From a virus, in IMG/VR virus record IMGVR_UViG_3300009509_000110, positions 1 to 21,878 of that record: a stretch of 21,878 nucleotides of DNA. One strand, given 5' to 3'. Position 1 is the first letter of the stretch, and each line of letters begins with the position of its first letter. Both the position numbers and the translations under genes were made by a program. Under the pieces are notes generated by a model that saw only the letters and a program-made list of their open reading frames with translations, was not told where the DNA came from and did no database searches. Positions 4,268 to 21,705 of this stretch are shown here, piece by piece.

Positions 4268-4878
4268 TACGCCCTCGGCTTGTAGCTGTGAGGATCCAGC
4301 ACTCGTGGCTGGGCCGGGTCCTGTCCCTTGAAAAGTTGCTCCCAGGTCGCCGTCACGATGGCCTCGAGCGGGAGGCTCCGCTGGATCTTTGATGCGGGCC
4401 CGGTCGCGACCTCGGTCGCCAGTTCCCAGCACGGCCTCCAGGCCCCGGGATCATCCTCACTGAAGCCACGCCCGAGCCAGGTGGGCGCGCCGAGAATCCC
4501 ATCGACGAGCTCGACGGGATACAGGTCCAGCAGCCACTCGCGGTCCAGCGGGAAGATTGACAGGATCTCGACCTCCTCCAGGGCGATCGTCTTCGGCGCC
4601 GTGTCCTCTGGGCACTCCTGCCACAGCATCGGCGCCTTCAGGTCGTAGTAGGCGCGGTCATCGAGGGTCTGCGGATCGCCGTCCGTCTGGCCGACGGTGA
4701 AGAGATTTCCGACGTAACCCGGAGGGTAGAAGCTCCTCATCGTGCCCTTCATCAGGAAGTAGGGATAGCGGCGATTGTGGCGCGGTCGTCCCCACGCGAT
4801 GATGTCCCCGGCCTCGGTCCACCGCTGGAACAGCAGGATGGCGAACTCGGTCTTGATCATGCGGATCTGGTGGCTCAT
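4267..4878 (-). CDS. conserved ~200-residue partner of the glycine-rich fibre, copy 1
   Basis: A 203-residue protein from ATG 4878, which overlaps the upstream stop by 4 bases (ATGA) and has AAGGAG 5 bases upstream. It starts MSHQIRMIKTEFAILLFQRW. It has a YFLMKGTMRSFYPPG block (~40-54), a FPLDREWLLDLYPVELVDGIL block (~108-128), and a C-terminal region with QLFKGQDPAQP. The same blocks occur in the gene at 2320-2907. I recognise no named family. There is no membrane segment or signal peptide. The one-to-one pairing with a glycine-rich fibre in both cassettes suggests it attaches, caps or helps fold that fibre, but this is inference. Confidence 0.7.
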   Translation of the reverse strand: MSHQIRMIKTEFAILLFQRWTEAGDIIAWGRPRHNRRYPYFLMKGTMRSFYPPGYVGNLFTVGQTDGDPQTLDDRAYYDLKAPMLWQECPEDTAPKTIALEEVEILSIFPLDREWLLDLYPVELVDGILGAPTWLGRGFSEDDPGAWRPCWELATEVATGPASKIQRSLPLEAIVTATWEQLFKGQDPAQPRVLDPHSYKPRA

Positions 4879-5093
4879 GTGATCTCCTTCAGGACGCAGC
4901 GCCGGCCCGCGCGCATCTCCATCCGACCAAGGACGACAAGCTGGTTGTAGAGGTAGCGGCCCAACTCCTCCTCGAACTCGGCCAGCGGACGTACCGCGAA
5001 CGCCTGAACCTCGCAGATCGGCCTTCCGTCGCAGTAGAACTGCACCTTGACGCGGTCGCTTCTGGTGAATCCGAGTAGCTTGTACTGGAACAT
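4875..5093 (-). CDS. small (~75-residue) cassette protein, copy 1
   Basis: A 72-residue protein from ATG 5093, sharing one base with the stop of the glycine-rich gene (TGATG). Its first half reads as beta strands (YKLLGFTRSDRVKVQFYCDG, ICEVQAFAV) and its second half as a helix (LAEFEEELGRYLYNQLVVLG) with a basic tail (MRAGRRCVLKEI). Its counterpart in the second cassette is the 76-residue gene at 2907-3137. No function is recognised. The length, fold pattern and position between fibre and partner genes are conserved, which suggests a functional unit rather than filler. Confidence 0.65.
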   Translation of the reverse strand: MFQYKLLGFTRSDRVKVQFYCDGRPICEVQAFAVRPLAEFEEELGRYLYNQLVVLGRMEMRAGRRCVLKEIT

Positions 5094-5809
5094 CAGTTGA
5101 TCTCTGACCCCTGGATGTCGAAGGTCCCGACCTTGGTCACATTCGAGACGCCGTCGATGGCCGCGCCGGCCGCTCCTCCAGTCGATGTCGCATTGGCCCC
5201 AGCCTGGCCCGGATCGCCTCCGTCTCCGCCCTGGCTTACGTCGAGGTAGCGTCCTCCGCCTCCACCGCCGCCGCCCCAGATCTCCGCGACCCCGCCCTGC
5301 GTGATCGTGATGGCCCGATCGACCTTGAGGGCCACCCCTCCAGCATCCCCCGACGTCAGGTACGTCAGTCCGGCTCCGCCGACCTGGAAGATCCCGCCTG
5401 CGCCGCCAGCGGATGCCGTCCCATCCTGGCCGGACTCGTCACCCGTGCCGCCGACACCGGGGACCGTGCCTGCCCCGCCGCCTCCGCCCGCGTAGACGAC
5501 GAAATTGGACTTGTCGATATAGGTGCCGGCGTTGCCTCCCTTGCCTCCGGCTCCCTGGACGCGCCCGTAGAAGATCAGATTGATGATCGTCCCCAGCTCG
5601 AAGTTGTCCGGGAAGTGGAGCGCAGGCTGGTCCTTGGAATCGGATCCGATGACCACCCCGGGGCTGATGACATAGGTCAGCGTCGCGGCCTTCTCCGGAG
5701 ATCCCGCAGCGACGTAGGCATCGACATTGTTGCCGACGAGGTAGATCGTGTCCGGGGCGGGCACTGAGCCCTTCTGTCCGAAGCCGACTCGCTGGTTGAC
5801 AATGAGCAT
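5093..5809 (-). CDS. glycine-rich tail fibre/adhesin, copy 1
   Basis: I place the start at ATG 5809, one base after the stop of the tail-fibre gene, giving 238 residues. The frame is open further upstream but reads there as an Arg/Ser-rich shadow of the neighbour. There is no clear ribosome site, so coupling to the upstream gene is likely. Residues ~1-80 are a non-repetitive beta-rich domain (MLIVNQRVGFGQKG, TIYLVGNNVDAYV). From ~85 on, glycine tracts follow short hydrophobic strands (NLIFYGRVQGAGGKGG, FVVYAGGGGGAG, GVAEIWGGGGGGGG). This matches glycine-rich phage adhesin tips and is homologous to the C-terminal half of the 377-residue protein in the second cassette. It lacks the nonapeptide repeats of that paralog. 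Likely receptor binding. Confidence 0.75.
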   Translation of the reverse strand: MLIVNQRVGFGQKGSVPAPDTIYLVGNNVDAYVAAGSPEKAATLTYVISPGVVIGSDSKDQPALHFPDNFELGTIINLIFYGRVQGAGGKGGNAGTYIDKSNFVVYAGGGGGAGTVPGVGGTGDESGQDGTASAGGAGGIFQVGGAGLTYLTSGDAGGVALKVDRAITITQGGVAEIWGGGGGGGGRYLDVSQGGDGGDPGQAGANATSTGGAAGAAIDGVSNVTKVGTFDIQGSEIN

Positions 5810-5810
5810 C

Positions 5811-7142
5811 TTATGCGTCCGTAGAAGCGTCCAGTGTCGCGAAGACGCGGACGTCCGTGAGGATGAAGTCCACGTCCAGGTTGTCCGAGGCGTCCGTTGG
5901 ATCGCGCTCAATCTCGAGCTCGATCTGGCAGTTGTCCGACGGCGTCCCCCCGGGAGTAAGGGCCGTCCCCAGTTCCCCCGTCTCGTACCGCGTCTCGATA
6001 CTCGTGAGCGTGAGATTGCTGAAGTCCTGCGCCGTACCGAACGCCTGGTCGAAGCTGTCTCCGGCCCCAACACACCGAGCTCGAGCGCGGAGCTTGACGA
6101 CGGTGCCCGTGCCGGAGCGCCGGCAGCCACCGAGAAGGAGCTGGAGGGTTCCGCCATCCCAGCTCTTGGGCGCCGGAATCGAGATCTGCGCGTAGGTCTT
6201 GTCCGTCCCGCCGCTCAGGGTTCCGCCGCTGAGCGAGATCTCCGTGCTCGCGTTCGTGGCAAGGGTGAAGGAGTTACCCCCGGTCCCGGGCGTGTCATGA
6301 GCCACGGTGACGATCGCGGCATTCGCGGTATAGGTGCAGTCGCCTGTAGTGCCCAGTGCCGAGGCATTGAGGCGGCTCGCAATCTCCGTCGCCTGCGCGT
6401 TGTTCGACCCCATGATCTGGATGTCGCCATCCGAGGTGTAGGTCGTTCGGAACGTGTAGACCGTCCCGTTGATCGTCAGGGTATCGACGCCGTTCGCCAG
6501 CGTAGAGTAGTCATCCACCTGGATCGCGCCGGTCGCAGCGACCGAGTCAGGAAAGGCCAGGCCCTTGATGTCGGGCCTGCCTGCGGTCGTCTCCCAGGTG
6601 TCATGAGGATCGCAACCATACGTCTCCCTGGGGCTCAGTGCCGCCGCAGGAAAGCCGATGGTGTGGCGTCCGACGGTGAGCGGTTGCGCCGCTGTGAATG
6701 CCGACTTGCGGATGGACTCGAGCAGGTAGAGGTAGACCGCCGTCGGGGTCGTGGGCACGACTCCCGAGTCAAGGGTCACGGTGATGTCGTTGTTCGGATT
6801 GCTGTAGGCCGCGCTCGAGACGTAGCCGTAGACATCGCCGCCGCCACTGCTGATCTTGATGCGCCGGTTCGTGGTGAAGTAGCCCGTGTCATCGACGGCT
6901 GGGCTGCCGACGATCCGGACGACCGTGTCGCTGACCTTCGACAGCGTGAAGGTGCGTCCGTCGTGCTGGGGAGTCAGCCAGAGGTTGACCCACTCCGCGT
7001 CTCGCATCCAACGCGCCACGGCCGCCATGATCTCGCGGCAGGCGTTGTTCACTGAGGGCTTGGTCTGGCCCTCCGGGAAGCCGTCCGGACTCGCAACCTG
7101 GTTGCTGTCTGCGACGATGTCCCACTTGCCGATGTCCGACAT
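5811..7142 (-). CDS. tail fibre protein with virion-adaptor-like N-terminus
   Basis: A 443-residue protein from ATG 7142, two codon-lengths or less after the giant gene's stop, with a GGGGGGAG site 4 bases upstream. The N-terminus (~20-50: DGFPEGQTKPSVNNACREIM, then AAVARWMRDAEW) is the familiar start of many podovirus tail fibres (PEGxxPSxVNDxxREMMAA). Residues ~50-140 form a beta domain. Residues ~204-313 (TLTINGTVYTF, NNAQATEIASRLNAS, TPGTGGNSFTLATN, SGGTLSGGTD) match a small domain repeated in many phage tail proteins. The C-terminus is another beta domain. As the first gene of the fibre region, it probably anchors host-recognition parts to the virion, with the glycine-rich adhesins acting downstream. 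Confidence 0.75.
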   Translation of the reverse strand: MSDIGKWDIVADSNQVASPDGFPEGQTKPSVNNACREIMAAVARWMRDAEWVNLWLTPQHDGRTFTLSKVSDTVVRIVGSPAVDDTGYFTTNRRIKISSGGGDVYGYVSSAAYSNPNNDITVTLDSGVVPTTPTAVYLYLLESIRKSAFTAAQPLTVGRHTIGFPAAALSPRETYGCDPHDTWETTAGRPDIKGLAFPDSVAATGAIQVDDYSTLANGVDTLTINGTVYTFRTTYTSDGDIQIMGSNNAQATEIASRLNASALGTTGDCTYTANAAIVTVAHDTPGTGGNSFTLATNASTEISLSGGTLSGGTDKTYAQISIPAPKSWDGGTLQLLLGGCRRSGTGTVVKLRARARCVGAGDSFDQAFGTAQDFSNLTLTSIETRYETGELGTALTPGGTPSDNCQIELEIERDPTDASDNLDVDFILTDVRVFATLDASTDA

Positions 7143-7143
7143 A

Positions 7144-10100
7144 TCACTCCCCCCGGAGCTGGCCCTGGATGTCCTGGACCGTCTCCTTCATGAATCGGTT
7201 GCGCTCCAGCCGCAGCTCCTCGATCCGCCTCTCGCGCTCCTCCCCGGGCAGGGTCCGGTCCATCTTCAGCCGGTTCATCTCATCGTTGAGCGACGAGACG
7301 TAGCGGGCGGCGCGGTCCATCTCACGCTTGAAGAGGATGCGCGGATCCGCGAGCAGCTCGTCGGCGCGGTCGTAGTCGCCCTCCTCCTCGAGCTGCCGGT
7401 AACTGTTCCAGACCTGATCGACGTCGTTGAGGATGTCGTAGAAGTCCTTGACATAGCGGCTGTACTTCCCGGGCCGCTCGTAGAAGCGGCTGACGAGGGG
7501 CAGCTCGTCGGTCCTCATCGAGCGCGGCTCGAATCCCAGCGACTTGTCCAGCGCGTGCAGGCCCCAGCCGGCGAAGTTGCCGAACACCGAGCGAAGCAGA
7601 GCCTCCATGCGGACGGGCGAGGTGTTGAGCTTCTTGCCGAGCTCCCGCAGCGTTGCCGGCGTGGTGGCCCGGTAGCGCGTCCCCGGCATCCGGCCCTCCA
7701 TCCCCTTCGTCTCGATCGGCTGGCCCGTGAACCAGACCTGGTTCGCCCCCTGCTCGTAGAGCTGGGAGATCCCGACCGGCAGGCCGAGGTGAAAGTTGTT
7801 CGCCACGATGCCGAGCAGATCCGCGCCGTACTCCGACCAGGTCGGGTTATCCGGCCGTACGAGCTGCTCCGCGAGCGTGCCGACCATTCCGGGCTCCCAA
7901 ATCTTCGGCTGCTTGAAGTGGTCGTACTGCATCTTGCCCGTCTTGGCGTCCACACCCCTCGGGATGAAGTAGTGCCAGTACGCCCACTTGTCCCAATCCG
8001 GGAGGTCGCGGTACTCCTCGATGCCCCAGTTCACCGCCGCGAGTGCCATGCTGTAGAGAGCCACCGTTCCCAGCCGGACGCCAGCGAGAGCGCGGTACTT
8101 CCGCGTCCCGTCCTTCACCCCGAGCATCCCACCGGGAACGGAACGTGTGATCTTGTCTGCGCCCTGCACGGCCGCGTTGAAGAACGGGATCGTCTCGGCC
8201 AGAAGCCGGTAGGTCGCGGCGCCACCCTTCACAGAGAAGTCGGTAGACACCTCCGCCGCCAGGAACGCAGAGTGACCCTTCGAGGCGCCCTTCTTCCGCG
8301 CCCTCATGTACTCGCCGAAGCGAGGCGCGTTCTCGATCGCGCGGCCCAGCGACTCCATCGCGTACCAGACGTCGCGCGCGCCGTAAAGCAGGAAGCGAGG
8401 ATTGAATCCCTTTTTCTGCGCGTAGCGCGTCAGGAGGCGACGCCGAAAGGCGGGATCTCTCCTGATCGTGGCGCCGCCTCCCCCCTGCTGGAGGTACTCC
8501 CTCCACTCCGGACTGTTCCTCATCTGGTGCAGGTACGCGCGGATCGTCGCAGTGAACGCCTGCTTGCCGGTCCTGGTCGTGATCGAGGCCATCACCGGAT
8601 CGCGTGTCGCGTTGGCGGCCATGAAGCCAGGAGTCATCACGCGGAAGTCCTGGATCCACTTCCGGGCCTCGTTGGCCCAGGCCAGGATCGGCTCCGGCCT
8701 CCGCATCGCGGCGACTGACTTGGTGAGAATCGGATCGAAGAGCTGGTAATACTGCGGCGCGCCCTTCTCCAGGTAGGTCATGATGTTGTCGCCGTAGGGC
8801 TTCTTCTTCCCCATCCAGAGGGTCACAGCGTCGGCCATGCCCTTGATCTTCAGCACTTCCTCCGGGAACGGGATGCCGAGGATGTCGAGCTCCCGCTTCA
8901 GCGCCGTCGTCACCTGCTCGATCGCGATACGCTGTGTGTGCGCGGACTCGGGGATCTTCGCTCCGAAGGCGCCGCCGCCCTCCTTGAGAAGCTGCCTCGC
9001 AACGTGGCGCCGGGCGTCGTTCTCCAGGGCGAGCTGGATCAGCCGAGAGGGACCGTCGAGGATGTTCATGAGTGGGTCGCGGACGTTGCGCGAGCTGCCT
9101 CGAATCGTGTGAATCCCGGAGCCGGTAGACCAGGGATCGGCTCGCCCGCCGATCCCTCGGCGGTCCCGCTCGATCTCCCGGAATAGGCCGAAGGCGCGAT
9201 CGGTGAATAGCCAGTTCTGGCGCTGCTGCTCCGAGAACAGCCCGGAGGCTTGTGCGAAGTCGGCGACGTGATCGTTGAACTCCTTGAGCTTGTCGAACAC
9301 CTGGCGGAACTCCGGCGTCTCCATCTCCATCCCGCGCTTGATCTCGGCATCGCTAAAGAGGTTCTCCCGCCGAGTCCCTCCGTAGCCCGGGCCCTCTCCC
9401 TTTGCGAGGGGATCCTTGACCGTCGGCGCGTTCTCGAAGAGGTGCCAGAACATCTTGTTAAGCTCCTCGAGTCGCTTCTCCAGGCGCGTCACCTGACCCT
9501 TCCAGGTCCGGATGTCCTCCGGTTCGGTGGACGTCTCGGCCTTCATTCGGGCCTCCTCGAGCTTGCTCTCGGTCGCCTCGATCTTGGCCGTCAGCGTGTT
9601 CAGCCGATCCTGCACTTCGGGGACGATATTTCCGATCTTCGCGACGCGGCCCGTCTTGGTCACAACCTGCTGCCTGAGCTGGGTCGCCATGCGGGCGAGG
9701 GAGTAGGCCCAGAACTGCCGTTCCTTGCGCCGTGAACGGTAGACGGGGGAGAGGATTTCCATGAGCCCGTCGCCCTCGAATCCAATGTCGGCTCCGCCAC
9801 GCCGCCAGACCGGGTAGCCGTCGTACAGCATCCGGTGAGCGATGGCGGGGACTCGCCTGAGTCGGCGCATTCGCTCGTAGGCCCGCATCGGCAGCACGCG
9901 ACCGTCCACCAGCTCGTCGAGCATCCGAACACCGTGGAGGTCGTCGATGTACGCCTGGCGCTTGAAGTCGAACTTGCGGTCGGCTGCGGCTGCGAGGTCT
10001 ACATTCTCGGGACCGATCTTCCCTTGGATCGAGTGCTCTGCCGGCTGTTGGAAGTAGCGGTTGATCTCGTCGCGCGCCCGGTACATCGCGTCCCGCTGGT

Positions 10101-13100
10101 TCTTGGGAAGAGTGCCGAGCGCCTTCTCGAATGCCTCGACGAAGGTGGGCGCCCTGGACTCGAGCGCCGAGGTCTGGGTCAGCCAGCCGCGCACCGCCTC
10201 AGCCCAGCCCTCGTCCACGCTCGTCCGGTCGTAACTCACACTGCGGAGTTCATCCGCGATCTTCTCCTGAGCTCGCGCGATGGCCTCGTTCTTCGATGCG
10301 TCGCCCAGGATGTGGTCCTTCGACAGCTCCCTCGTGAACGCCCTGAAGACCTTGTAGCGGTCGGCCAGGGCGTGGCCGATCTCGTGGGCGGCGACCTGGA
10401 GGTCGCCCCATCGGCGGATCGCCAGAGTCCCGGAGCCGGGGTGGCCCTTCGGGACATAGAACCCGGCGACGCTCTGGGTGAAGCGGTGGCCGTGAAGGCG
10501 GAGCCGGCCCTGCTGAATCGGGAGCTTGAGCTCGCGTACCAGGCGGTTCAGAACCTCGCCGCGCCGTAGGAGCTTGCGAGGAATCCGGGCATCCGCCGGC
10601 TGGCTTACCGTGTCGGTGAAGGGGATCCAGTTCTCGCCCGCCTCGACTTCCTCCGCACCTACCGTCTCCTGGCGGGGCTTCTCATCCGAGAGGCGGATCT
10701 CCTTCGACCGAGTACCCCGGAACTCCTTGATGCCGAACTCCTTGCGGGCGTCCGGCGAGAACGCGGCCTTCCACGCGCTTTCTGGGGTCGGTGGGGGGCC
10801 GAGTAGCGTGCCCTGCTGGTTCGCGGAGTCCTCGACGCCCCGGCCGTAGCGAGCGAATGCTCGCTTCACCTGGAGTTGCGTGCCCTGGAAGGTCCGCATC
10901 AGATCCGCGACGTCGGGAGGGATCCGGCCCTCGAGCATCGAAGTCTGGGTCAGCGCCTCTTGCATCGTGAGGTTGTTCGCTGCCCGGTGGCCCTCCTGGC
11001 GCACGGCCTCCTCGACCCTGGCGCGGAAGCCGAGTTCCGGCGCCGTGCTCTCGACCCGGAGGATCGTGGGAACCGCCCGGATGAGGCGCTGCTTCAGCCC
11101 GTTCGACATCGCGTTGAGCGTGTCCGAGTTCCGGATCACGCGGCCGACCAGGGCGTTCTCCGCCATCCGGAGCCCGTCCTCGCTGAGCGTGCCGTGCTGC
11201 GTGACGTACTTGTTCCGGTTCTCCCGGGTGATGATCTTGTCGCGCTCGAGCGACTTGACGATCCCCCGGTTGTTGGAGAGCAGGGCCCGGAGCGTCTGGT
11301 CATCGCCGAGCTTGTCCAGCATGGCGCTGAAGTCGTTGAGGGTGGCCTCGGAGATGCTGCGGCCGTGGGAGACGCCGCGATCTCCTGCGCTGACCTCCTG
11401 GGTCAGGCCCTCGTTCAGACGGCGGGCCAGGACCCCCTGCTCGTTGAGGCTGTTCGGCCGCTCGACGACGCGGACGATGACGGGGCGCGCCATCTCGAGC
11501 GCCTGGTTGTAGTCCAGGCCGAATCGTTCCACTCGCGCCAGTGTCTCCGCGCGCAGCTCGCCCGGCGACATCCGGGAGAGGCCGTTGTAGACCCGGCTGA
11601 TGATCATGGCCCGGCCGTTCCCGCCGTAGACGATGCCGGCCTGATCCACGATCGGCGGCCCGGTGAGCGCGTTCGGGGCGTCGTTGTAGATCTCGTCCGG
11701 CTTGAAGGCGTCGGCGTTGCGGATGACCTTGTCCTGCTCGCTGCGGTCCCGGTGATAGGCCCGCTCGTTCATCCCGGGCGGGTAGCCCTCAGTCGGGCTG
11801 AAGGTGGCGCCGCTGTGAGAGGTGCGGAGATCCCCCAGCTCCATCAGCGCGTACTGGCCCCGGAGCGAGTCCCCGTCCGGGAGCCCGATCTCAGTCTCGC
11901 GGCCGTAGACCTTGCCGACGTCCACCTCGGGCAGCTCGAGCTCCGACTCAGCCCTCATCTCGTCGGACTCAGCGCGGCCAGTGCCTCCCGTGGGCGGCCT
12001 CAGAACGCCGTTCTCTTCGACCCATCCCTCCGGTCTTGACACCAGCTCGTAGCGGCCAGAGGCGACGGCTCGCGCGGCCGCATCAGTCCCGGACTCGCGG
12101 TGAGTCTCCTTCAGGTCGAAGACGCGCTCGTAGTGGCTTCTCGGCATCGCGAGGTCGTTGACCGCGTCGTAGACGAACCCGTCCTTCTCGGCCCAGGCGT
12201 GGAGAATCTCGCGCTGCGGGTAGCCCCCGACCAGGACGCCCTCGACGTAGTCCCCTCGGAACTTGGCCGCGAGGTCCGTGGCGCACTTCTGGCACTTCTT
12301 GTCCATGCCCCAGACGGGATCCCGAGTCTCCGCGATGTAGTCGCGCATGGCGTCGCGCAGTGGGGCGTCGGCCCCGACCGCGATGGGGTCGCCGGGCTGA
12401 CGTGCTCTCGTCTCGCGCTCTGTGAGCCGCCCCTCCAGGTACTCCTGCTCGATCCGATCCGCGAAGCTCTCAGCCTCCTTCTGGGTCATGCCGAGCTGCC
12501 GCCCGAAGGCGATCGCGTCGGCCCGGTCCCAATCGGGCGGCAGGCCCTCGCGGGCCGTGGCTTCGCCAGGGCGCTCAGGAGACGAGATCTCGCCGCCCGG
12601 GGGTTCGGCCTCGGGGCGCTCGATCGGAGCCTCGGGACGCTCAGGGGTGGCAGGCTCCTCGGGTGTTCTGGGCCTGGGTGGCGGCCACTCGGGCGGCTCC
12701 GGGATCGGTGGCTCCTCCGCAGGCTCTTCCGGAAGCTGCCGGCCCGCGCGCTCCTCGAGAGGCGGACGCTCCACGATCTCGGGCTTCGGCCGAGCCCGGT
12801 AGGGCTTCCCGAGCGCCCCGAACATCGCCATCTCGCCCGTCTCGATGAGGCGCGGGACTCCCTCCTGGCTGCTCATCCCGTAGGTGGCACCCCCCAGCGC
12901 CCCCGCGCGGACCATCCGAGGCTGTGAGCGCAGGAAGCGGAATAGGGCTCCGATGATGGCTCCTTTCCCCGCCTCCTCGGCAATCGTCCAGGAGTCCTGG
13001 TCGGCGACTCCCAGAGCCGAGAGCATCGCGAATCCCACGATCGGACCCGCCGCGTGCGCGGCGACAATGGCCTGGCCCACCCCCAGCGGGATCCCGGCGA

Positions 13101-14280
13101 CCGCCTCCGCGATCATTCCAGGCACCCCCTGTCCATCCGGGCGCTTCCCTTCGGCGAGCCGCAGCATCTCCTGGGCGCGCTCGCGGTACTTCTCCTCCAG
13201 GTCGCCGAATGCCCCACCGTAGAAGATGGGGTTGTCCTGCGTCCCCGTGAGGCTCGCGGCGCTCTGGGCTAGGTAGTCGAGGATCATGAAGGCGTTGGCC
13301 GCGTTCCACTCCGCGCCCGCGATGCTCCCGTAACCGCCGGCACCGAGGGAGTCCCAGACCTCCATGAGCTTCCCCATCCCCTGGAGTTCCGGGGCCCCCT
13401 CGGGCTTCTGGCGGCCTCTCACCTTCTCCGCCCGGGCCTCGAGTTGGGCGCGGGGGCCGTAGTATCGATCGAAGAAGCGGCGGTTCCGATCGCGAAGGGG
13501 AACCTGGCGCCCCTCCTGGTCGGTGTAGTAACGCTGGTACTCGCGCTGCTGCGTCTCGACGTCGCCCTCCAGGACCGCCTTCGTGAACTTCGGGAACTCG
13601 GCCGAGAACGTGGGACCGAGATTGAAGGCGAAGTCGATGAGCTTCTCCTGGTCCTGCCTCGGCAGCTTGGCCCATCGCTCCTCACCGACAGCCCACTTCG
13701 CGTCGGACGCTGCGATGGCCGCGTCGCTCCGGAGCATCCTGTCGGCCTCTTCGCCGGAGATCTCCGTCGGCGTCATGGGGCCGACCTGGTGTCCGTAGCC
13801 GATCTGCCGCTCGCCCTGAGCCGGACCCGGGCCAGCCTTGAAGGGCCCCCGGTTGCTCCCGGCCTCGACCGTGCGGAGGTACTCGTAGAAGTCCTCCGAG
13901 AGTCCGCCCTCCTGGTCGATGTCGGGCAGGGGGCGGGCCCGCGCAATCGCAGCGAGGCCGATGTCTCCCGGGCGGGCAGTAGCAACCGACGTCGAGCCCC
14001 CGGGCTGGGCAGCCTCCGGCTGGGCGCGCGGACCCGCCGAACGCATCTGGGACATCAGCCGCGTCGCGGACTCGTTACCGGCACGCGGGTCGTAGTCGTC
14101 GATCGGCTGGCCGAGAGCGCGGCGTGCGCCCTCCGGGAGCCTCACGTCAATGAAGGCGTCGAGCTCGAAATCGGAGACGTCCTGGAACGCGGGATCCCTG
14201 TCGCGCAGGAATTGCCGGCGCTCCGCGTCGGGAAGCGCAGCGAAGTCCTCGTCCCGGATGATGCCTGCGATGTCGGTCAC
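7144..14280 (-). CDS. giant polyvalent internal virion (ejection) protein with lysozyme-, papain-, ParB- and metallopeptidase-like domains
   Basis: A 2378-residue protein from GTG 14280 (GAGAGGG site upstream). Domains in order: a lysozyme-like region (~125-290; TVEAG, IGYGH at 160-164, FAFNLGPTF); hydrophobic glycine-rich helices (~385-470); and a Pro/Glu linker (~500-575). Next is a Cys-His-Asp domain (~650-725; C666, HAW with H694, VYDAV with D705), papain/transglutaminase-like. Then a DdrB/ParB-like domain (~765-1075; GGNGRAMII at 886-894) and a zincin with HEIGH at 1299-1303 and DEGWAE at 1356-1361. A coiled coil (~1552-1610) leads to a long helical C-terminus with a hydrophobic stretch at ~2064-2086. 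Phage polyvalent proteins of this type are packed in the head and ejected with DNA. The lysozyme would open the wall, as in T7 gp16, and the other domains may act on host proteins or DNA. It follows two other ejection-type genes. Confidence 0.85.
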   Translation of the reverse strand: MTDIAGIIRDEDFAALPDAERRQFLRDRDPAFQDVSDFELDAFIDVRLPEGARRALGQPIDDYDPRAGNESATRLMSQMRSAGPRAQPEAAQPGGSTSVATARPGDIGLAAIARARPLPDIDQEGGLSEDFYEYLRTVEAGSNRGPFKAGPGPAQGERQIGYGHQVGPMTPTEISGEEADRMLRSDAAIAASDAKWAVGEERWAKLPRQDQEKLIDFAFNLGPTFSAEFPKFTKAVLEGDVETQQREYQRYYTDQEGRQVPLRDRNRRFFDRYYGPRAQLEARAEKVRGRQKPEGAPELQGMGKLMEVWDSLGAGGYGSIAGAEWNAANAFMILDYLAQSAASLTGTQDNPIFYGGAFGDLEEKYRERAQEMLRLAEGKRPDGQGVPGMIAEAVAGIPLGVGQAIVAAHAAGPIVGFAMLSALGVADQDSWTIAEEAGKGAIIGALFRFLRSQPRMVRAGALGGATYGMSSQEGVPRLIETGEMAMFGALGKPYRARPKPEIVERPPLEERAGRQLPEEPAEEPPIPEPPEWPPPRPRTPEEPATPERPEAPIERPEAEPPGGEISSPERPGEATAREGLPPDWDRADAIAFGRQLGMTQKEAESFADRIEQEYLEGRLTERETRARQPGDPIAVGADAPLRDAMRDYIAETRDPVWGMDKKCQKCATDLAAKFRGDYVEGVLVGGYPQREILHAWAEKDGFVYDAVNDLAMPRSHYERVFDLKETHRESGTDAAARAVASGRYELVSRPEGWVEENGVLRPPTGGTGRAESDEMRAESELELPEVDVGKVYGRETEIGLPDGDSLRGQYALMELGDLRTSHSGATFSPTEGYPPGMNERAYHRDRSEQDKVIRNADAFKPDEIYNDAPNALTGPPIVDQAGIVYGGNGRAMIISRVYNGLSRMSPGELRAETLARVERFGLDYNQALEMARPVIVRVVERPNSLNEQGVLARRLNEGLTQEVSAGDRGVSHGRSISEATLNDFSAMLDKLGDDQTLRALLSNNRGIVKSLERDKIITRENRNKYVTQHGTLSEDGLRMAENALVGRVIRNSDTLNAMSNGLKQRLIRAVPTILRVESTAPELGFRARVEEAVRQEGHRAANNLTMQEALTQTSMLEGRIPPDVADLMRTFQGTQLQVKRAFARYGRGVEDSANQQGTLLGPPPTPESAWKAAFSPDARKEFGIKEFRGTRSKEIRLSDEKPRQETVGAEEVEAGENWIPFTDTVSQPADARIPRKLLRRGEVLNRLVRELKLPIQQGRLRLHGHRFTQSVAGFYVPKGHPGSGTLAIRRWGDLQVAAHEIGHALADRYKVFRAFTRELSKDHILGDASKNEAIARAQEKIADELRSVSYDRTSVDEGWAEAVRGWLTQTSALESRAPTFVEAFEKALGTLPKNQRDAMYRARDEINRYFQQPAEHSIQGKIGPENVDLAAAADRKFDFKRQAYIDDLHGVRMLDELVDGRVLPMRAYERMRRLRRVPAIAHRMLYDGYPVWRRGGADIGFEGDGLMEILSPVYRSRRKERQFWAYSLARMATQLRQQVVTKTGRVAKIGNIVPEVQDRLNTLTAKIEATESKLEEARMKAETSTEPEDIRTWKGQVTRLEKRLEELNKMFWHLFENAPTVKDPLAKGEGPGYGGTRRENLFSDAEIKRGMEMETPEFRQVFDKLKEFNDHVADFAQASGLFSEQQRQNWLFTDRAFGLFREIERDRRGIGGRADPWSTGSGIHTIRGSSRNVRDPLMNILDGPSRLIQLALENDARRHVARQLLKEGGGAFGAKIPESAHTQRIAIEQVTTALKRELDILGIPFPEEVLKIKGMADAVTLWMGKKKPYGDNIMTYLEKGAPQYYQLFDPILTKSVAAMRRPEPILAWANEARKWIQDFRVMTPGFMAANATRDPVMASITTRTGKQAFTATIRAYLHQMRNSPEWREYLQQGGGGATIRRDPAFRRRLLTRYAQKKGFNPRFLLYGARDVWYAMESLGRAIENAPRFGEYMRARKKGASKGHSAFLAAEVSTDFSVKGGAATYRLLAETIPFFNAAVQGADKITRSVPGGMLGVKDGTRKYRALAGVRLGTVALYSMALAAVNWGIEEYRDLPDWDKWAYWHYFIPRGVDAKTGKMQYDHFKQPKIWEPGMVGTLAEQLVRPDNPTWSEYGADLLGIVANNFHLGLPVGISQLYEQGANQVWFTGQPIETKGMEGRMPGTRYRATTPATLRELGKKLNTSPVRMEALLRSVFGNFAGWGLHALDKSLGFEPRSMRTDELPLVSRFYERPGKYSRYVKDFYDILNDVDQVWNSYRQLEEEGDYDRADELLADPRILFKREMDRAARYVSSLNDEMNRLKMDRTLPGEERERRIEELRLERNRFMKETVQDIQGQLRGE

Positions 14281-14292
14281 GTTGCCCTCTCA

Positions 14293-15477
14293 TCAGCGCA
14301 TACGCGGGTACTTCTCCTCGAGACGTCGGCGCGCGTCGGACACCTCGGGAGGGTCGCCGAAGCCCCACGCATCCCAGAGCTCCTGGACTCGCTCCGACCA
14401 ACTGGGCCCCTCGGGCGCGACTTCCTTCGCAGGGGCCTCTCGCCCGGGCGCCTTATCGGCCTGGCCGTACAGTCGGGCGAGTCGCGCCCGGTACTGATCC
14501 ATCGTCTCCCCAGGGATCATCTTCATCGCGTTCGCTGCGCGCTGCGACGCGACGGGATCGACGACCGAGTGTGCGCGCCGCCGCTCCTCATCACTGAGCC
14601 CTTCGTACCAGTCAGAGTCCGCCTGGCGCGTGCCGGCGGTCGCGCTCTGTGTCGGCGTCATCACGCCGGTCCCGAGAGTGAGCTGCTGGCCCCCGCGTCG
14701 CGCAGCCATGTACCGCTCGCGCTGGGCCTCCGAGATGTCGGTGCGCTTCAGCTGCTCGTCCAGGTAGCGGTTGAAGGAGCGTCGGTCGCGGCCCGCCTCG
14801 ACGGCCCGGGTGGCCTGGAAGATGTTGCCGCCCTGCGACGTAGTCCCCAGGAAGTCGATCGCCCCCTGCGTGATCGGGCTACCCCAGATGCGCGAGAGGA
14901 TGTTCCCCCGTTCCTTCGGCGCCGCCGCAGCTTCCCGGGCCCGAACAACATCGAGCGTCTCGCCACTGAGCGTCGGGCCCTGGAGCGCCCCCTGGCCGGG
15001 CTCGATCACTTCGGGCTCCGGCATCTTGTAGGCCGCGTCCGTCCTCCTCGACCGGATCGGCGCGTTCGGATTGAAGTCCGGTGTGCGTGCGTAATCAGGC
15101 ACTCGGAGCGGATCGGGACCGATCACGTTCGTCCCGCGTCGCAGTGCCTCCATCCTCTGGTCGCCGGGCATGATGCCGCGCACCAGCCCGCCCATGCCGC
15201 CGCGCTCCAGGAGGGCCTGCTGAATGAGCGGACTCTGCGTCGCGAACCGAGAGCCCTGACCCTGCTGGCCCATGCGCGAAGCCAGGAGTCTCTTGAGCAG
15301 CTCCCCCTGACCTCCGCCTCCGGCCGCACTCCGGCCTCCGGGCATAGAACTGACCGTGGCCTCGCCCTTGCCGCCCTCCTGCTCGAAAGCGGCCTGGACG
15401 CCCTGCCTGCCCATCTCGGCAGCACCCGCCATGAGTGCGGCCTTTCCGAGCGCGATCAGGAATGCAGGAATCGGCAT
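14293..15477 (-). CDS. internal virion (ejection) protein
   Basis: I choose ATG 15477 (394 residues). A GTG one codon earlier is possible, but GGGGGG lies 6 bases from the ATG. The N-terminus (MPIPAFLIALGKAALMAGAA) is a hydrophobic helix. It is followed by a low-complexity Gly/Gln/Arg region (~45-100) with many short helices and no recognised enzyme motif. Two regions look structured: ~190-260 (NILSRIWGSPITQGAIDFLG, RRSFNRYLDEQLKR) and the C-terminus (~290-394, SDWYEGLSDEERRRA, VQELWDAWGF). Its position between the 265-residue protein and the giant polyvalent protein is that of a podovirus core/pilot protein ejected with DNA. The assignment rests on context and composition. Confidence 0.65.
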   Translation of the reverse strand: MPIPAFLIALGKAALMAGAAEMGRQGVQAAFEQEGGKGEATVSSMPGGRSAAGGGGQGELLKRLLASRMGQQGQGSRFATQSPLIQQALLERGGMGGLVRGIMPGDQRMEALRRGTNVIGPDPLRVPDYARTPDFNPNAPIRSRRTDAAYKMPEPEVIEPGQGALQGPTLSGETLDVVRAREAAAAPKERGNILSRIWGSPITQGAIDFLGTTSQGGNIFQATRAVEAGRDRRSFNRYLDEQLKRTDISEAQRERYMAARRGGQQLTLGTGVMTPTQSATAGTRQADSDWYEGLSDEERRRAHSVVDPVASQRAANAMKMIPGETMDQYRARLARLYGQADKAPGREAPAKEVAPEGPSWSERVQELWDAWGFGDPPEVSDARRRLEEKYPRMR

Positions 15478-15492
15478 CACTCACCCCCCATC

Positions 15493-16290
15493 TCATCCAA
15501 AGCCCAGCATACTCGCCAGGCCCCGACCCCAATCGATGCTCCGAGGTCCGGTCTTGCCACTCAGGCTGGTCGTGCCGCCGCCCGCCACCGGACCACCGAT
15601 CGCCTCCTGGAAGAGTCCGAGTCGCTCCCACGGCTCTCCCTGCTGGAAGTTCCACCGCTCGACCAAGTCGTTCAGGAGATCCTGGAGATACACGTCTTCC
15701 TGCTGCCCCGCTGCCGCGAGCCGATCGATGTCGTAGTAGTCCTCCCGGGCGAACTGTGGAGCCATGCCCATCGCCCGCTCCTGCGCGCCTCGCTCCGAGA
15801 GGTAATTGCGATAGTAGATGTCCGTTGCCGCGTCAGTCAGTGAGCCGGCGAGCTCGCCCTGACTGCGCGTGAGTGCGCCCTGGTAGGCCCCCGAACGCCG
15901 CGCCCCGGCTCCCGCGAATCGGCTCTCCAGGTCGTTGAGCACGGTACGGTTGTAGTGCTCTCCGATCTGTCCCGCGACCCGCCCGAACTCCCGATCGAGG
16001 ATCGGGTTCCCTTCCAGGAACTCACCGCGCATCGTCGCCATGTTGAGCTGCTGCGCCTCGCGGAGTTGGTCGCTGCCCATCCCCGCGCGGTACTCCGTGC
16101 GCCGCAGAGCCTCCATCGTCTCCGGGCTCCGCTCCGCAATCGTGGAGGTCGGGTAATACTGGAGCGGCTGGCCGTAGGCCCGCTCGGCCCTCCCGTACAG
16201 GCGCTCGAGGTAGGGGGCCTGCTTGATCCACGGGTTGTAGACCTGGACGCTCCGGCTCGCCTCTCGACTGCCTCCTCCGCCCTTTGCCAT
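15493..16290 (-). CDS. internal virion / DNA-ejection-type protein
   Basis: A 265-residue protein from ATG 16290 with AAGGAG 7 bases upstream. It begins MAKGGGGSREASRSVQVYNP. After that come an LERLYGRAERAYG helix and QYYPTSTIAERSPETMEALR. This pattern (glycine run, NPW..Q.PYL, YxxA...Y, YYPxxTxAxxSPET) is common in a family of podovirus proteins encoded beside internal virion proteins. The middle is helical and the Ala/Gly/Arg-rich segment FAGAGARRSGAYQGAL (~120-140) is typical of that family. The C-terminus is glycine-rich and ends in LASMLGFG. It is probably carried in the virion and ejected or placed at the portal. The family assignment is from pattern memory. Confidence 0.65.
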   Translation of the reverse strand: MAKGGGGSREASRSVQVYNPWIKQAPYLERLYGRAERAYGQPLQYYPTSTIAERSPETMEALRRTEYRAGMGSDQLREAQQLNMATMRGEFLEGNPILDREFGRVAGQIGEHYNRTVLNDLESRFAGAGARRSGAYQGALTRSQGELAGSLTDAATDIYYRNYLSERGAQERAMGMAPQFAREDYYDIDRLAAAGQQEDVYLQDLLNDLVERWNFQQGEPWERLGLFQEAIGGPVAGGGTTSLSGKTGPRSIDWGRGLASMLGFG

Positions 16291-16291
16291 G

Positions 16292-16765
16292 TCAAATCTC
16301 CTTCGTCAGGGCCGTGTAGCAGTGCTTGAATCCGAACTGGCCCATCACGCGCTCCCAGCCCTTTCGACCTAGAACCTCGATCTCGCTGCACCCGTTCTGG
16401 ATCGCCCAGTGCTCCAGCTCCCGGTACAGGTGCAGCCAACTCTCCATCTTCTCTCCCGCCAGGAACAGGACCGAGCAGACCCGGCGGCGAGGGTACTCCA
16501 GAATCTCCGTGACCATCGCCGCGCGGTTCTCGTGGAATCCCTCTCCTTCCGCAGCCGCGAGCCACATCTGCATATTGCCCTTCGAGCACTCGTCGATGAT
16601 GTGCTCCGGGCTGTACCGCTCCTCCATCGGCCGCAGCGCAGGGGCGATCATGTCGCAGAGGTACTCCCTCACCTTCTCGTCGTAAAAGGCGTCCGGCTGG
16701 ACGGAGTAGAGGCTAACCGAGATAGGCGACGCCGAAGATTCTGTCTGTCGATGGCTGACTGTCAT
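16292..16765 (-). CDS. GNAT-fold virion protein (T7 gp13-like position)
   Basis: A 157-residue protein. Its C-terminal half (VCSVLFLAGEKMESWLHLYR, LEHWAIQNGCSEIEVLGRKG, then WERVMGQFGFKHCYTALTKE) carries the pattern of the GNAT-like proteins found among podovirus internal virion genes. These share the acetyltransferase fold but usually have not been shown to acetylate anything. The ATG at 16765 has no ribosome site, and the gene overlaps its upstream neighbour by 53 bases. No better start exists before the conserved region, so translation may depend on the upstream gene. It lies directly before the ejection proteins, as gp13 precedes the core proteins in T7. A minor or assembly-time virion protein is likely. 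Confidence 0.65.
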   Translation of the reverse strand: MTVSHRQTESSASPISVSLYSVQPDAFYDEKVREYLCDMIAPALRPMEERYSPEHIIDECSKGNMQMWLAAAEGEGFHENRAAMVTEILEYPRRRVCSVLFLAGEKMESWLHLYRELEHWAIQNGCSEIEVLGRKGWERVMGQFGFKHCYTALTKEI

Positions 16766-17036
16766 GGGTGATCGTGATTTGCCCGGTGGAGCAGGTAGCC
16801 CAGACGACTCCGGAAGCGAGCGCCTGTGCGGCCGACTGGCTCATCGGGCTCAGGATGACGATGGTCGCGGACCCGATCTCGGGCCGGGTCAGAATCGTAG
16901 TGGTGGAGCTGGCCGTCAGCGTCACCTTCGCGAAGTGATTGACTCTACCCAGGAGCACGCCGTTCAGGATTCGCGCGAGCGTGCGCCTGTGCTCCTTGGC
17001 ATCGTCGAAGAACTCTGGTGCTGACTGGTAACTCAC
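16713..17036 (-). CDS. small beta-rich tail/neck protein
   Basis: A 107-residue protein from GTG 17036, overlapping the nozzle-like gene's stop by 4 bases (GTGA). The N-terminal helix (EHRRTLARILNGVLLGRVNH) is followed by strands VTLTASSTTTILTRPEIG and TIVILSPMSQSAAQALASG. It ends TGQITITHDSQPSTDRIFGV. This layout (helix, then VTLTANxxxTTLxDxRIG, PxTANAAA, GxxTITHxN) recurs in small proteins encoded next to podovirus tail and internal-protein genes. It is probably a trimeric beta-rich tail or fibre-attachment component. The exact role is not defined by the sequence. Confidence 0.65.
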   Translation of the reverse strand: MSYQSAPEFFDDAKEHRRTLARILNGVLLGRVNHFAKVTLTASSTTTILTRPEIGSATIVILSPMSQSAAQALASGVVWATCSTGQITITHDSQPSTDRIFGVAYLG

Positions 17037-18529
17037 TTCCGTCCCGTCGGACGCGACTCGGCATCGATGCCGAGTGCGTCGTCGAAGCCGCCCTCAACGG
17101 TCATCCGGATTCGGTGGTATCGGGCGTCGCATCGAGAGGGGCAGGCGCCCGATCTCTCGCTCATGCGCTGCGCTGGCTTGTACGTCACCGCTTTGCGGAG
17201 GGTCGAGCGCCCGCCGATTTGAACCTGGACATCCTGCGCGCCTGCGACCAGAGGCCGCATCAAGCCCGTCATCGATCGGAGCCCAGCCGCGAACTCGATG
17301 TCACCCCACTCGAAGATGGCCGTCAGTGGCGTCCCTGCGAACTGCGACAGGACGTGGCTCGTGCTGTAGGCGCCCAGCAGATGGGGGCCGTACTCAGCCA
17401 GCCGATCGTCGAAGGAGCCGGTGGCCGCATCGACCGTCTCGGCATCCGCCTGGTCGATCGAGGCGTTCACCAGCGAGACGGCCTTGAAGATGAGCTCCGT
17501 GTCCATCTCGCACAGGGCGAAGTTGTTGCGGGCCGTGTGCCAGATCAGGAGCTTGTTCGGTGTGCCTCCGCTGTTCCCGCTGCCCGGGTAGGCGACGTAA
17601 ATCAGGGGCCGATCCGGGTCCCTCGCGGCACTGACGCGATGGGGGTAACTCATGTCCAGGTCGGCCAGGAAGGTCTTGTTGATGATCCCGTCGCCGACAT
17701 CCGTCGATCCTGTGTAGTTGAAGACCCGGAAGCCCGAGGGCGAGAGGAAGAAGATCTGCCGGCCGAAGGGCACGACCAGGTCGGGGATCATGAGGCCGAA
17801 GTCGGGCTCGACGGTGTTGATCTGATACATCGTCTGGCCGCCGACGAAGTCCATGCGCGAGATGGCCTTCTCCTGGAAGATCGCTCCGATCTCGGTGCCA
17901 CCGACGATGTTCTGCACCTCGCCGGCCTCGCCCTTCAGGTCGCGGTAGTCTGAGAGCAGCGCCAGGGCCGAATCACTGCCCGGGGTGGGCCAGGAGTAGG
18001 GATTGTTGTTGGCGGGCCACCAGACGCGGGTCGGCATCCGCCCGTAGGTCGTGTCGATCGTGTTCCCGACAACGATGTGCAGGTTGACCACGCCGATGCA
18101 GCGAGCCCGAGGCGCATCGCTCGAGAGGTCTGAGAAGACCGAGGACGCCGTCAGGTTGAACGCCTGGATAGGGTAGTTCGGGGTGACGGCGATGATGTCG
18201 TCGTCGAACGCGGCGAATCGCCACTTGTCAATCGGGTTGAGCGCGTATCCGCCTGACTTCGACTTATCCACATGAGCGGCCGTTGCGGGATCGACGACGT
18301 AGAGCTTCGTCTCGTCGCCGGCAATCGTGTAGGGGACGCCCTCGGAGCTGACTCCCGAGATGGCGCCACGGCAGTAGGCGGTCGTGCCTCCCATCGACAT
18401 CGACGAGAGCGACCCGTGCTCCTCGTACCCGACGGCCTTCGGGCGGGTGTTCTGGCAGGTCAGCAGGCCCTTGGTGCCGATCGCGAGCGAGGCGAGGTCG
18501 GGCATCCAATCGCCCAGTGTGATCCTCAT
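17033..18529 (-). CDS. tail nozzle / P22 gp10-like stabilisation protein
   Basis: A 498-residue protein from ATG 18529 with a strong AGGAGG 5 bases upstream that overlaps the previous stop. It is rich in beta strands and aromatic residues. It begins MRITLGDWMPDLASLAIGTK. Blade-like segments include LYVVDPATAAHV, WRFAAFDDDIIAVT, RVWWPANNNPYSWPTPG and IFFLSPSGFRVFNYTG, the style of the beta-propeller tail nozzle proteins of SU10/P22-like and T7-like phages. It lies immediately after the adaptor-like gene, which is the usual order for adaptor then nozzle. It likely forms the hexameric tube end through which DNA and internal proteins leave. Confidence 0.75.
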   Translation of the reverse strand: MRITLGDWMPDLASLAIGTKGLLTCQNTRPKAVGYEEHGSLSSMSMGGTTAYCRGAISGVSSEGVPYTIAGDETKLYVVDPATAAHVDKSKSGGYALNPIDKWRFAAFDDDIIAVTPNYPIQAFNLTASSVFSDLSSDAPRARCIGVVNLHIVVGNTIDTTYGRMPTRVWWPANNNPYSWPTPGSDSALALLSDYRDLKGEAGEVQNIVGGTEIGAIFQEKAISRMDFVGGQTMYQINTVEPDFGLMIPDLVVPFGRQIFFLSPSGFRVFNYTGSTDVGDGIINKTFLADLDMSYPHRVSAARDPDRPLIYVAYPGSGNSGGTPNKLLIWHTARNNFALCEMDTELIFKAVSLVNASIDQADAETVDAATGSFDDRLAEYGPHLLGAYSTSHVLSQFAGTPLTAIFEWGDIEFAAGLRSMTGLMRPLVAGAQDVQVQIGGRSTLRKAVTYKPAQRMSERSGACPSRCDARYHRIRMTVEGGFDDALGIDAESRPTGRK

Positions 18530-18538
18530 GTCTACCTC

Positions 18539-19183
18539 CTACGCGACGGTGTCGGGAACTGTCCTGATCGGCCCCCCGCCCCAGCGGGCGCGCTTCTCCA
18601 GGCGGTTCAGTGCGGCGACTGCCTTGCCGTACCTCTTCTCCCAGAGGACGAAGCGGTTGTCGTCCTCGATCCAGGGTTGCGCCTCCATCAACGCCCCGAA
18701 CAGCATCGCGTTCGGGTAGTTGGTGAGGAGGTAGTTCGTGGGGTTGCTGTCCGAGAGGGGCGTGATCCCGTAGTACCCGCCGATGGAGTAGGTGTGCGCG
18801 GCCGTCGGAGTGGGAGCCAGTGCGACATTGAATCCCCGGTGCATGAAGGCTCGGGGCTTGCCACTGTCGTCGTTCTGCCGGATCCGGTTGAACATCTCCG
18901 CGCTGACGAGCTCGAGATTGCCGGATCGGTCAGAGTAATCGGCCCGGATCCAGCGCACCTCGAGCATGGTGGCCGGCGGCGTGATGTAGTCCTGGCTGGC
19001 GACCATCGAGAGGCCGGTCGTCTCGCTCTCCGTCAGCCGCATCCGGAGGTCGGTGCTCTGCTGAATATCCACTTCCGCGAGTCGGATGAAGGCTGGGATC
19101 AGCGTGATCAGATCGTCGCGATCGAGGTAGCTATCCACCGCGTTGACCAGGCCGTCGTAGGTGGTGAGATCGATCTCGGACAT
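18539..19183 (-). CDS. head-to-tail adaptor (SU10/P22 gp4-like)
   Basis: I choose ATG 19183, which overlaps the upstream TGA by one base (TGATG), with GGGAGG 5 bases away; a GTG one codon earlier is less well placed. The protein has 214 residues. The first ~60 residues are helical (TYDGLVNAVDSYLDRDDLIT, LIPAFIRLAEVDIQQ). The middle holds YITPPATMLEVRWIRA. Near the C-terminus are NYLLTNYPNAMLFGALMEAQ and the helix RYGKAVAALNRLEKRARWGG. This is the common pattern of phage adaptor proteins that form a ring below the portal. The following gene is nozzle-like, which agrees. Confidence 0.8.
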   Translation of the reverse strand: MSEIDLTTYDGLVNAVDSYLDRDDLITLIPAFIRLAEVDIQQSTDLRMRLTESETTGLSMVASQDYITPPATMLEVRWIRADYSDRSGNLELVSAEMFNRIRQNDDSGKPRAFMHRGFNVALAPTPTAAHTYSIGGYYGITPLSDSNPTNYLLTNYPNAMLFGALMEAQPWIEDDNRFVLWEKRYGKAVAALNRLEKRARWGGGPIRTVPDTVA

Positions 19184-19572
19184 CACAGCCTCCCGGGCCA
19201 GATCCGGAGCCAGGCGTACTCGGGGTCATTGAGAAGCCGCTTCATCGCAGCGGTCGAGTCGGGCTGGAGGATGTCTACCCCGTGCTTGTTCCTCCACTCG
19301 AGGTAGAGCCAGTCGGGGATCGTGGCCGCGTGATACCACTCGCCCGATTTGGACTTCCCGGCGTTCGATCCCTCGTGGACCTGGCGCTCCTTGCAGTAGC
19401 GGATGAAGGGGTCCATGTCCTGCGTGACCCTGGTAATCATCCGCTGCTCGTTCTCGTCCCAGCGGTCCTCCTCGATCAGTCCGCCCTCTCGTGCGATCGA
19501 CTCCAACCGCACGAGTTGGTTGAAGCTCGAGAAGGACTCTCCGGGCCTCTTCTGAACAAGCGCCGCCAGCAT
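19183..19572 (-). CDS. conserved phage structural-region protein, unknown role
   Basis: A 129-residue protein from ATG 19572, overlapping the previous TGA by one base. The N-terminal half is helical and charged (LVRLESIAREGGLIEEDRWD). The C-terminal half (AATIPDWLYLEWRNKHGVDI, DSTAAMKRLLNDPEYAWLRI) matches a short motif common in podovirus structural clusters: a VxLxW..KHGVDIxxxD segment followed by RLLNDPEYxxLR. Its function there is not established. It always lies among head-completion genes in my recollection, so it is probably a minor virion or assembly protein. Confidence 0.65.
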   Translation of the reverse strand: MLAALVQKRPGESFSSFNQLVRLESIAREGGLIEEDRWDENEQRMITRVTQDMDPFIRYCKERQVHEGSNAGKSKSGEWYHAATIPDWLYLEWRNKHGVDILQPDSTAAMKRLLNDPEYAWLRIWPGRL

Positions 19573-20742: not shown

Positions 20743-21705
20743 TTAGCTCGAGGTCAGCGCGCCGATGTAGCCGTTCCCGGCCTCGTTGCGGCAGATCAGG
20801 GTGTGCTCCGCGAGCAGCAGCCGCTTGTTGGCGTCGCCGGTCTTCGCCAGCGGCTCCGTGCGGAAGCTGCGGAGATACCCGATCGCCCAGAGGGTCGGGT
20901 CGATCACATGCACCGACATCGAACGACTGAACCTGTTGGGAACCAGTCTGTGAGTCCCGAAGTCCGAGACGTAGATGTCGATGGCGGCTGTGAGCTTCTT
21001 GTCCTCGCCCTTGTCGGTGCGCGTCGAACCGCCCGTGAACCCGCTGGCCGTGACCTTGTTGAAGGCGCCGGTCATGATGATCGTGGGGTCGCCTCCTGAC
21101 GTCCACACGTTCTGGATGACCGTCTTCAGCAGCGACTCGGTGAACGGCCTCAGCGTTCCGTCCGTCGGTGCGGCCGAGTTGTTCGGCTGCCCGGCCGTGT
21201 GGGCTGCGTCCGCGCCACCGGCACCCCGAGAGGTATTGGTGTCGTACCAGACCTCCATCCCGCCGAGTTGGCGAGCGACCGTCTTCGACCCGACCGTGAT
21301 CGGATTGTCCGACGTGAAGATCGCCTCGAGATCGCGCTTCAGCTCCCGGGCGGCCTTCGCTACCTGATAGCCGAGTTCGGTCTTCCGACCGGCCTTGTTG
21401 ATCGCGTCCGCCGTCCCCGACACCACGACCACCTTCCAGGAGATCTGGGAGATGTTGTGGAGGCGCTGCGTCGGCGTGATCGCATCGCCTGTCGTGATGT
21501 CGTCGCCCTCGATGTGGGCATTGGTGTCGTCGGCCGCTGCGAGCGCGTCCGTCTGCCACTCGTGAGTGACAGCCGAGATGCTCTCGCGATCGACGTTCGA
21601 CATGAACGGGGTGTCCATCGGGGAGATGTCGTAGATCGCATCTTCCAGATCTTCCCGCTCGCCGACGAGATCGTAGCTGTCGAAAGTCTCAGCGTACTGA
21701 GTCAT
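20743..21705 (-). CDS. major capsid protein (DUF5309 / SU10-like, HK97 fold)
   Basis: A 320-residue protein from ATG 21705, with GGGAGG 8 bases upstream and a 4-base overlap (ATGA) with the previous gene's stop. It shows the DUF5309 pattern: an YDLVGEREDLEDAIYDISPM N-arm, DTPFMSN, HEWQTDAL, an EGDD acidic motif, QRLHNISQISWKVVVVSGTA, and the helix YQVAKAARELKRDLEAIF. These are followed by a P-domain-like region (WTSGGDPTIIMTGAFNKV) and a C-terminal region with VPNRFSRSMSVHVIDPTLWA. Family members form the icosahedral shell of short-tailed phages such as SU10. The length is typical for the family. No decoration fusion or protease domain is visible, so maturation would rely on a separate scaffold. 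Confidence 0.9.
   Translation of the reverse strand: MTQYAETFDSYDLVGEREDLEDAIYDISPMDTPFMSNVDRESISAVTHEWQTDALAAADDTNAHIEGDDITTGDAITPTQRLHNISQISWKVVVVSGTADAINKAGRKTELGYQVAKAARELKRDLEAIFTSDNPITVGSKTVARQLGGMEVWYDTNTSRGAGGADAAHTAGQPNNSAAPTDGTLRPFTESLLKTVIQNVWTSGGDPTIIMTGAFNKVTASGFTGGSTRTDKGEDKKLTAAIDIYVSDFGTHRLVPNRFSRSMSVHVIDPTLWAIGYLRSFRTEPLAKTGDANKRLLLAEHTLICRNEAGNGYIGALTSS

Follow-up and report, generated by a model that had tools for sequence, protein, structure and literature searches.

A giant phage protein with an LPD38-containing C-terminal core and variable N-terminal domains, probably a podophage ejection protein

The window analysed here comprises the 21,878 bases of a virus record that covers part of a phage genome; all of its features described below lie on the minus strand. 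The giant protein gene (7144..14280) is one uninterrupted frame of 2378 codons that starts with GTG and has a purine-rich stretch, GAGAGG, immediately 5' of the start. The original prediction of a single open frame at this locus was correct in its extent but is realized on the minus strand, the plus-strand reading being broken by stops. Shuffling the window 100 times by mononucleotide gave stop-free frames of at most 485 codons, and the GC content at codon positions 1, 2 and 3 of the gene (0.68, 0.47 and 0.88) is coding-like. All four motifs named in that prediction were found in the 2378-residue product: IGYGH at residue 160, C663 and C666 with H694-A-W and D705, GGNGR at residue 886, and HEIGH at residue 1299. 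Three of the four enzyme-like domains read from them (GH24, ddrB-ParB and zincin) stand, whereas the Cys..HAW..D region is present as a motif only.

The GH24 phage-lysozyme-like domain occupies residues ~135-265 (13486..13878). When residues 101-300 were scanned alone, Pfam PF00959 (Phage_lysozyme) matched residues 156-261 with an E-value of 2e-7 and 31.8 bits against a cut-off of 22.3, and PHROGs concurs with an endolysin match (E 1.4e-5). The usual GH24 catalytic triad is Glu-Asp-Thr. In an alignment with the lysozymes of two cyanophages, S-SM1 and S-SSM5, Glu139 is kept as the catalytic Glu, but the Asp and Thr positions are replaced, and a longer loop (an insertion) makes the alignment there uncertain. 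The lysozyme-like fold family is thus retained from the original prediction, while enzymatic activity is uncertain because only the Glu aligns. Further along the polypeptide a hydropathy scan marked a hydrophobic segment at residues 405-423 (13012..13068); several related proteins have a similar segment close to their N-terminus.

The next region, C663xxC666...H694AW...D705 (residues 604-784; 11929..12471), is a putative enzyme identified by sequence motif. C663 and C666 are the sole cysteines of the whole protein, so that a functional site may lie here. One reading takes this region for a new domain, a cysteine enzyme of the transglutaminase or papain type. The C-x2-C-A...HAW...D arrangement in which the two cysteines sit presumably resembles that of transglutaminase-like enzymes, and its HAW form arose in 0.1% of shuffles, against 1.7% for the broad Cys/His/Asp motif; we regard the arrangement as suggestive only. 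Neither the Transglut_core (PF01841) nor the Peptidase_C93 (PF06035) profile matched in the window, the region had no match in Pfam, PHROGs, the PDB, phages, plasmids, IMG/VR or 369 genomes, and the AlphaFold model, built without relatives, is uninformative (pLDDT 37). One weak genome match was rejected as an unrelated ORF. The CxxC may equally be metal-binding, and we consider a cysteine enzyme doubtful. Such a domain would be unlisted before for polyvalent proteins; text searches of PMC5512222 for 'papain' and 'cysteine' were negative.

The ddrB-like ParB domain, with its C-terminal extension to residue ~1175 (10756..11904), is firmer. PF18763 (ddrB-ParB) matched residues 802-939 with an E-value of 4.9e-12 and 46.5 bits against a cut-off of 27.6, and the active-site residue Arg890 is invariant among the distinct relatives (80 of 80 alignment rows), so the ParB-like assignment of the GGNGR segment was borne out. 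The region also matches gp47 of Alcaligenes phage Piluca.

Residues 1239-1420 (10021..10566) carry HEIGH at 1299-1303 and EGWAE at 1357-1361. No Pfam zincin family scored above its cut-off in this region, the best E-values being about 0.15-0.2. Profile searches thus failed for the cysteine region and Pfam for the zincin, but the latter was rescued by its relatives: HExxH is intact in 66 of 66 and EGxAE in 68 of 68 distinct relatives with residues present at those positions. The AlphaFold model predicts three short strands followed by a helix with HExxH and then a helix with the downstream Glu, and a matching order of strands and helices has been described for the metallopeptidases of polyvalent proteins (PMC5512222). 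With HExxH and a downstream Glu in the second predicted helix, the assignment of a zincin-like metallopeptidase holds up.

These residues also bear on the idea that the giant protein serves mainly for ejection or as a channel, its ParB, zincin and cysteine domains being inactive remnants or structural parts. The incomplete GH24 triad and the orphan cysteine region would suit such a protein, but none of the distinct relatives scored departs from HExxH, EGxAE or the ParB arginine. Because of this invariance, selection appears to keep the zincin and ParB active sites, and we consider wholesale inactivity improbable.

The largest and most conserved part of the protein, which the original prediction did not notice, is a C-terminal core at residues ~1432-2368 (~950 residues). 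Its first part (residues 1432-1538; 9667..9987) was recognized with an iterated profile, and its second (residues 1637-2368; 7177..9372) by profile matches in more than 70 proteins. The second part includes the LPD38 domain (residues 2088-2263; 7492..8019), which matched PF18857 with an E-value of 2.2e-18 and 67.5 bits against a curated cut-off of 27. Just before LPD38 the hydropathy scan found a hydrophobic segment (residues 2065-2083; 8032..8088) that is kept in most of the relatives scanned. The literature searched for a role of LPD38 contained only the domain name (PMC5512222, with one mention in PMC9144972). The two halves of the core are split by a ~95-residue coiled-coil insertion (residues ~1545-1640; 9361..9648), recognized from the alignment and from long helices in the model; it is missing from the closest relatives.

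As single queries against IMG/VR, neither the whole protein nor its N-terminal third retrieved any relatives, and those used here were obtained through ParB, zincin and zincin-core alignments and by tblastn against phage records. Thirteen diverse cores, once aligned, proved too divergent to serve for scanning. By iterated profiles, the core is common to giant proteins of Vibrio, Aeromonas, Shewanella, Escherichia, Achromobacter, Bacillus, Pelagibacter and cyanobacterial phages, and it also occurs in prophages of Betaproteobacteria such as Dechloromonas denitrificans. At most 35 residues follow the core in 53 of 55 distinct proteins, which makes it C-terminal in all but two. Ahead of it lie between 22 and 2973 residues, and the lowest values come from truncated contigs or split frames. 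Comparison among related phages shows a constant core and differing N-terminal domains: methylase, ADP-ribosyltransferase (ART), pyrophosphatase (InPase) and ParB in some relatives, SLT transglycosylase with helicase and methylase in others. One related giant gene, in L198 (7787-13050), lies in two overlapping frames; the cause could be a frameshift or a sequencing error, or the frames could encode two proteins.

The zincin is directly N-terminal to the core in 45 of the 55 proteins, a share inflated by the fact that most of them were fetched with zincin alignments; it occurs in about a third of the dozen phage records from the whole-protein search. The zincin was considered as a constant part of the core and dropped, several core proteins having none. 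Published hypotheses for polyvalent-protein metallopeptidases have them process their own chain, either ahead of packaging, inside the head or once in the cell, and self-processing has been proposed for P1 DdrB and others (PMC5512222). By analogy, there is perhaps an even chance that this zincin cuts the giant protein itself.

The original prediction gave the domains another purpose: once the wall is opened, the zincin, cysteine and ParB-like domains would act on host proteins or defence systems, as a multi-tool counter-defence protein. Such a role has precedent in P1 DarB and related virion proteins, which protect against type I restriction (PMC9024508), and in the many conflict-type enzymes carried on polyvalent proteins (PMC5512222), and the methylase, ART and helicase domains of the relatives are in keeping with it. 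We found no defence target or partner, however, and the cysteine region has no relatives. Moreover, the zincin adjoins the core in many proteins whatever their cargo, for which a common processing role fits better than a varied effector. The self-processing hypotheses are at least as likely as action on host or defence proteins; that the zincin or the cysteine region attacks host defence directly is possible but not supported, and we judge the multi-tool role unlikely as a whole.

Upstream of the giant gene lie head, tail-tube and ejection genes, the late virion location typical of polyvalent proteins. They comprise the major head protein (20743..21705; phrog_1328, E 2e-97), virion structural proteins in the tail-tube-A (18539..19186; phrog_2941, E 7e-36) and tail-tube-B (17033..18529; phrog_3287, E 4e-53) positions, a GNAT-like acetyltransferase gene (16292..16765), and a 265-residue gp7-like DNA ejection protein (15493..16290; phrog_4287, E 2.3e-11) with homologues in phages related through their capsid proteins. 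Next is a 395-residue protein (14293..15480) that had no profile match and is placed in the second ejection-protein slot by position. The giant gene is thus the last of the ejection cluster, in the third slot after a gp7/gp14-type and a second ejection protein. The gene that follows it (5811..7142) is in the probable tail fibre position and matches phrog_28344, a family of unknown function (E 1.5e-8).

The same arrangement recurs in other phages. On the long contig of the closest kin (L177), tail-tube A, tail-tube B, a small gene, GNAT, a gp7-like ejection protein, a 320-residue protein and the giant protein follow one another in the order of the window. The cluster order of Pelagibacter phage HTVC204P and of ct8d5349 is nearly identical to it, and epsilon15 has its tail, GNAT and internal virion proteins in the same order. 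A GNAT gene is found in the tail/ejection cluster of the window, HTVC204P, ct8d5349, L177 and epsilon15, where it is gp13, annotated as an internal virion protein; its constant position suggests that the putative acetyltransferase acts in the virion or in assembly.

Three capsid kin with head proteins 45-48% identical (L213, L214 and L215) keep the cluster but have unrelated proteins of 400-680 residues in place of the giant one, which indicates that the giant protein is exchanged in the third slot. In L214 the second-slot protein matches phrog_2534, 'released from the phage upon host infection'; profile comparison of the 395-residue neighbour with second-slot proteins found no homology. Compared with window positions 5811-16290, the last ejection genes of these three kin appear to have been exchanged as a block or singly.

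Several smaller genes of the window were also noted. Those at 4267-4878 and 2320-2976 encode paralogous proteins of ~200 residues (29% identity, E 2e-13 by direct comparison), and two glycine-rich tail-region proteins at 3134-4432 and 5093-6157 have no similarity to each other. A match to Peptidase M15_3 at 960-1370 (E 0.0017) and one to prokaryotic phospholipase A2 at 489-950 (E 0.0036) are weak and below their cut-offs; the former may be a lysis or wall peptidase.

The best support for placing the core family in virions comes from Burkholderia phage JC1, where 51 unique peptides of gp69 were detected in virions purified on CsCl; the products of the two preceding genes, gp67 and gp68, are also virion-associated (PMC9144972). 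JC1 gp69 (4515 residues) carries the core at residues 3727-4501 (E 3e-64). This homologue and the podophage order of the ejection cluster support the predicted placement of the window protein in the virion, by homology only. An alternative is a late intracellular protein outside the virion, for example an assembly protease or a DNA-binding factor, the virion data being those of the homologue. Given the position within the tail/ejection cluster and the JC1 data, we consider this very unlikely.

We therefore favour, with a probability of roughly 0.75, a virion-carried podophage ejection protein made of a constant C-terminal core and replaceable N-terminal cargo. The giant protein would be packaged in the head with the other ejection proteins and expelled through the short tail at infection. 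Along its path the GH24-like domain would loosen the peptidoglycan, and the hydrophobic segments may contact the inner membrane. In the cytoplasm the ParB-like domain would act on the incoming DNA. The zincin may cleave its own polypeptide, before packaging or after entry, and so free the cargo from the core.

Several observations weigh against this interpretation. The core had no detectable sequence similarity to epsilon15 gp15-gp17, and profile comparison showed no homology with the small third-slot proteins of the capsid kin or with the ejection-cluster proteins of Piluca. The core, ParB and zincin profiles did not match the N4 virion RNA polymerase (gp50). A Foldseek search of the core against the PDB gave nothing meaningful (best match dynein, E 3e-3, TM 0.09), and because no solved structure resembles the core, a channel role for it is unsupported; against viral models, the Foldseek matches were other large polyvalent proteins. 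The GH24 catalytic triad is incomplete, the zincin is missing from some core proteins in a sample that favours those having it, virion presence is that of the JC1 homologue, and self-cleavage is conjectural.

More generally, and more tentatively, the LPD38-containing core could be a podophage ejection chassis that loads proteins 1200 to 4600 residues long into the head and directs them into the cell, the zincin of many members freeing an exchangeable cargo. On this view the window protein would represent one variant of the cargo and might include a new cysteine-enzyme domain; we rate this extension as plausible, at somewhat less than even odds. An ejection protein of this kind links two lines mostly described apart, polyvalent proteins as effectors of early conflict and podophage ejection proteins. 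Should delivery be the task of the LPD38 core, it would offer a handle on how phages bring multi-hundred-kilodalton enzymes into cells.

Among known systems, the closest fit is with the polyvalent proteins (Iyer et al. 2017, PMC5512222), a classification made in the original prediction and supported here, LPD38 and ddrB-ParB being phage-type polyvalent domains (PMC5512222). The window protein joins disparate, unrelated enzyme-type domains in one polypeptide (lysozyme of the GH24 type, ddrB-ParB, a zincin-like metallopeptidase and the LPD38 core) in a late virion neighbourhood. Fusions of lysozyme and ddrB-ParB have been described in Acinetobacter prophages (PMC5512222), but the exact domain set of the window, with its Cys..HAW..D region, was not found elsewhere. 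Betaproteobacterial prophage proteins, such as those of Dechloromonas denitrificans (L193) and Rugosibacter (L195), share the zincin and core at ~31-34% identity and in some cases ParB; they are mostly 1200-1700 residues long, and no lysozyme or cysteine region was found in them.

Compared with the ejection proteins gp16 of T7, gp16 of P22 and their epsilon15 counterpart, the giant protein holds the same third slot of the cluster and is likewise its largest member. In T7 gp16 the N-terminal domain is a peptidoglycan hydrolase, and membrane helices are predicted in the C-terminal part (PMC8954989). The window protein differs in having no sequence homology to epsilon15 gp15-gp17, and its top Foldseek matches include no solved ejection protein. 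By position and packaging it would work like a third ejection protein, although homology to the gp16 type was not found. The N4 virion RNA polymerase of the Schitoviridae is likewise a giant enzyme with several domains, and two smaller ejection proteins are ejected along with it (PMC12633501), but it is not matched by the core, ParB or zincin profiles. P1 DarB and DdrB are giant virion antirestriction proteins, and ddrB is the namesake of the ParB domain (PMC5512222, PMC9024508); P1, however, is a myophage.

The DarB-like giants of Bcep22-like podophages, JC1 gp69 and DC1 gp67, share the homologous C-terminal core with LPD38. DC1 gp67 has an N-terminal peptidoglycan hydrolase, comparable in place to the GH24-like domain of the window protein, and JC1 gp69 is the last of three consecutive virion-associated gene products (gp67-gp69). 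Both are nearly twice as long as the window protein and carry SLT in place of GH24; their ParB and zincin counterparts are a methylase and a helicase. Giant multi-domain virion proteins were already known, and the window protein helps to show that they combine a shared core with changing cargo.
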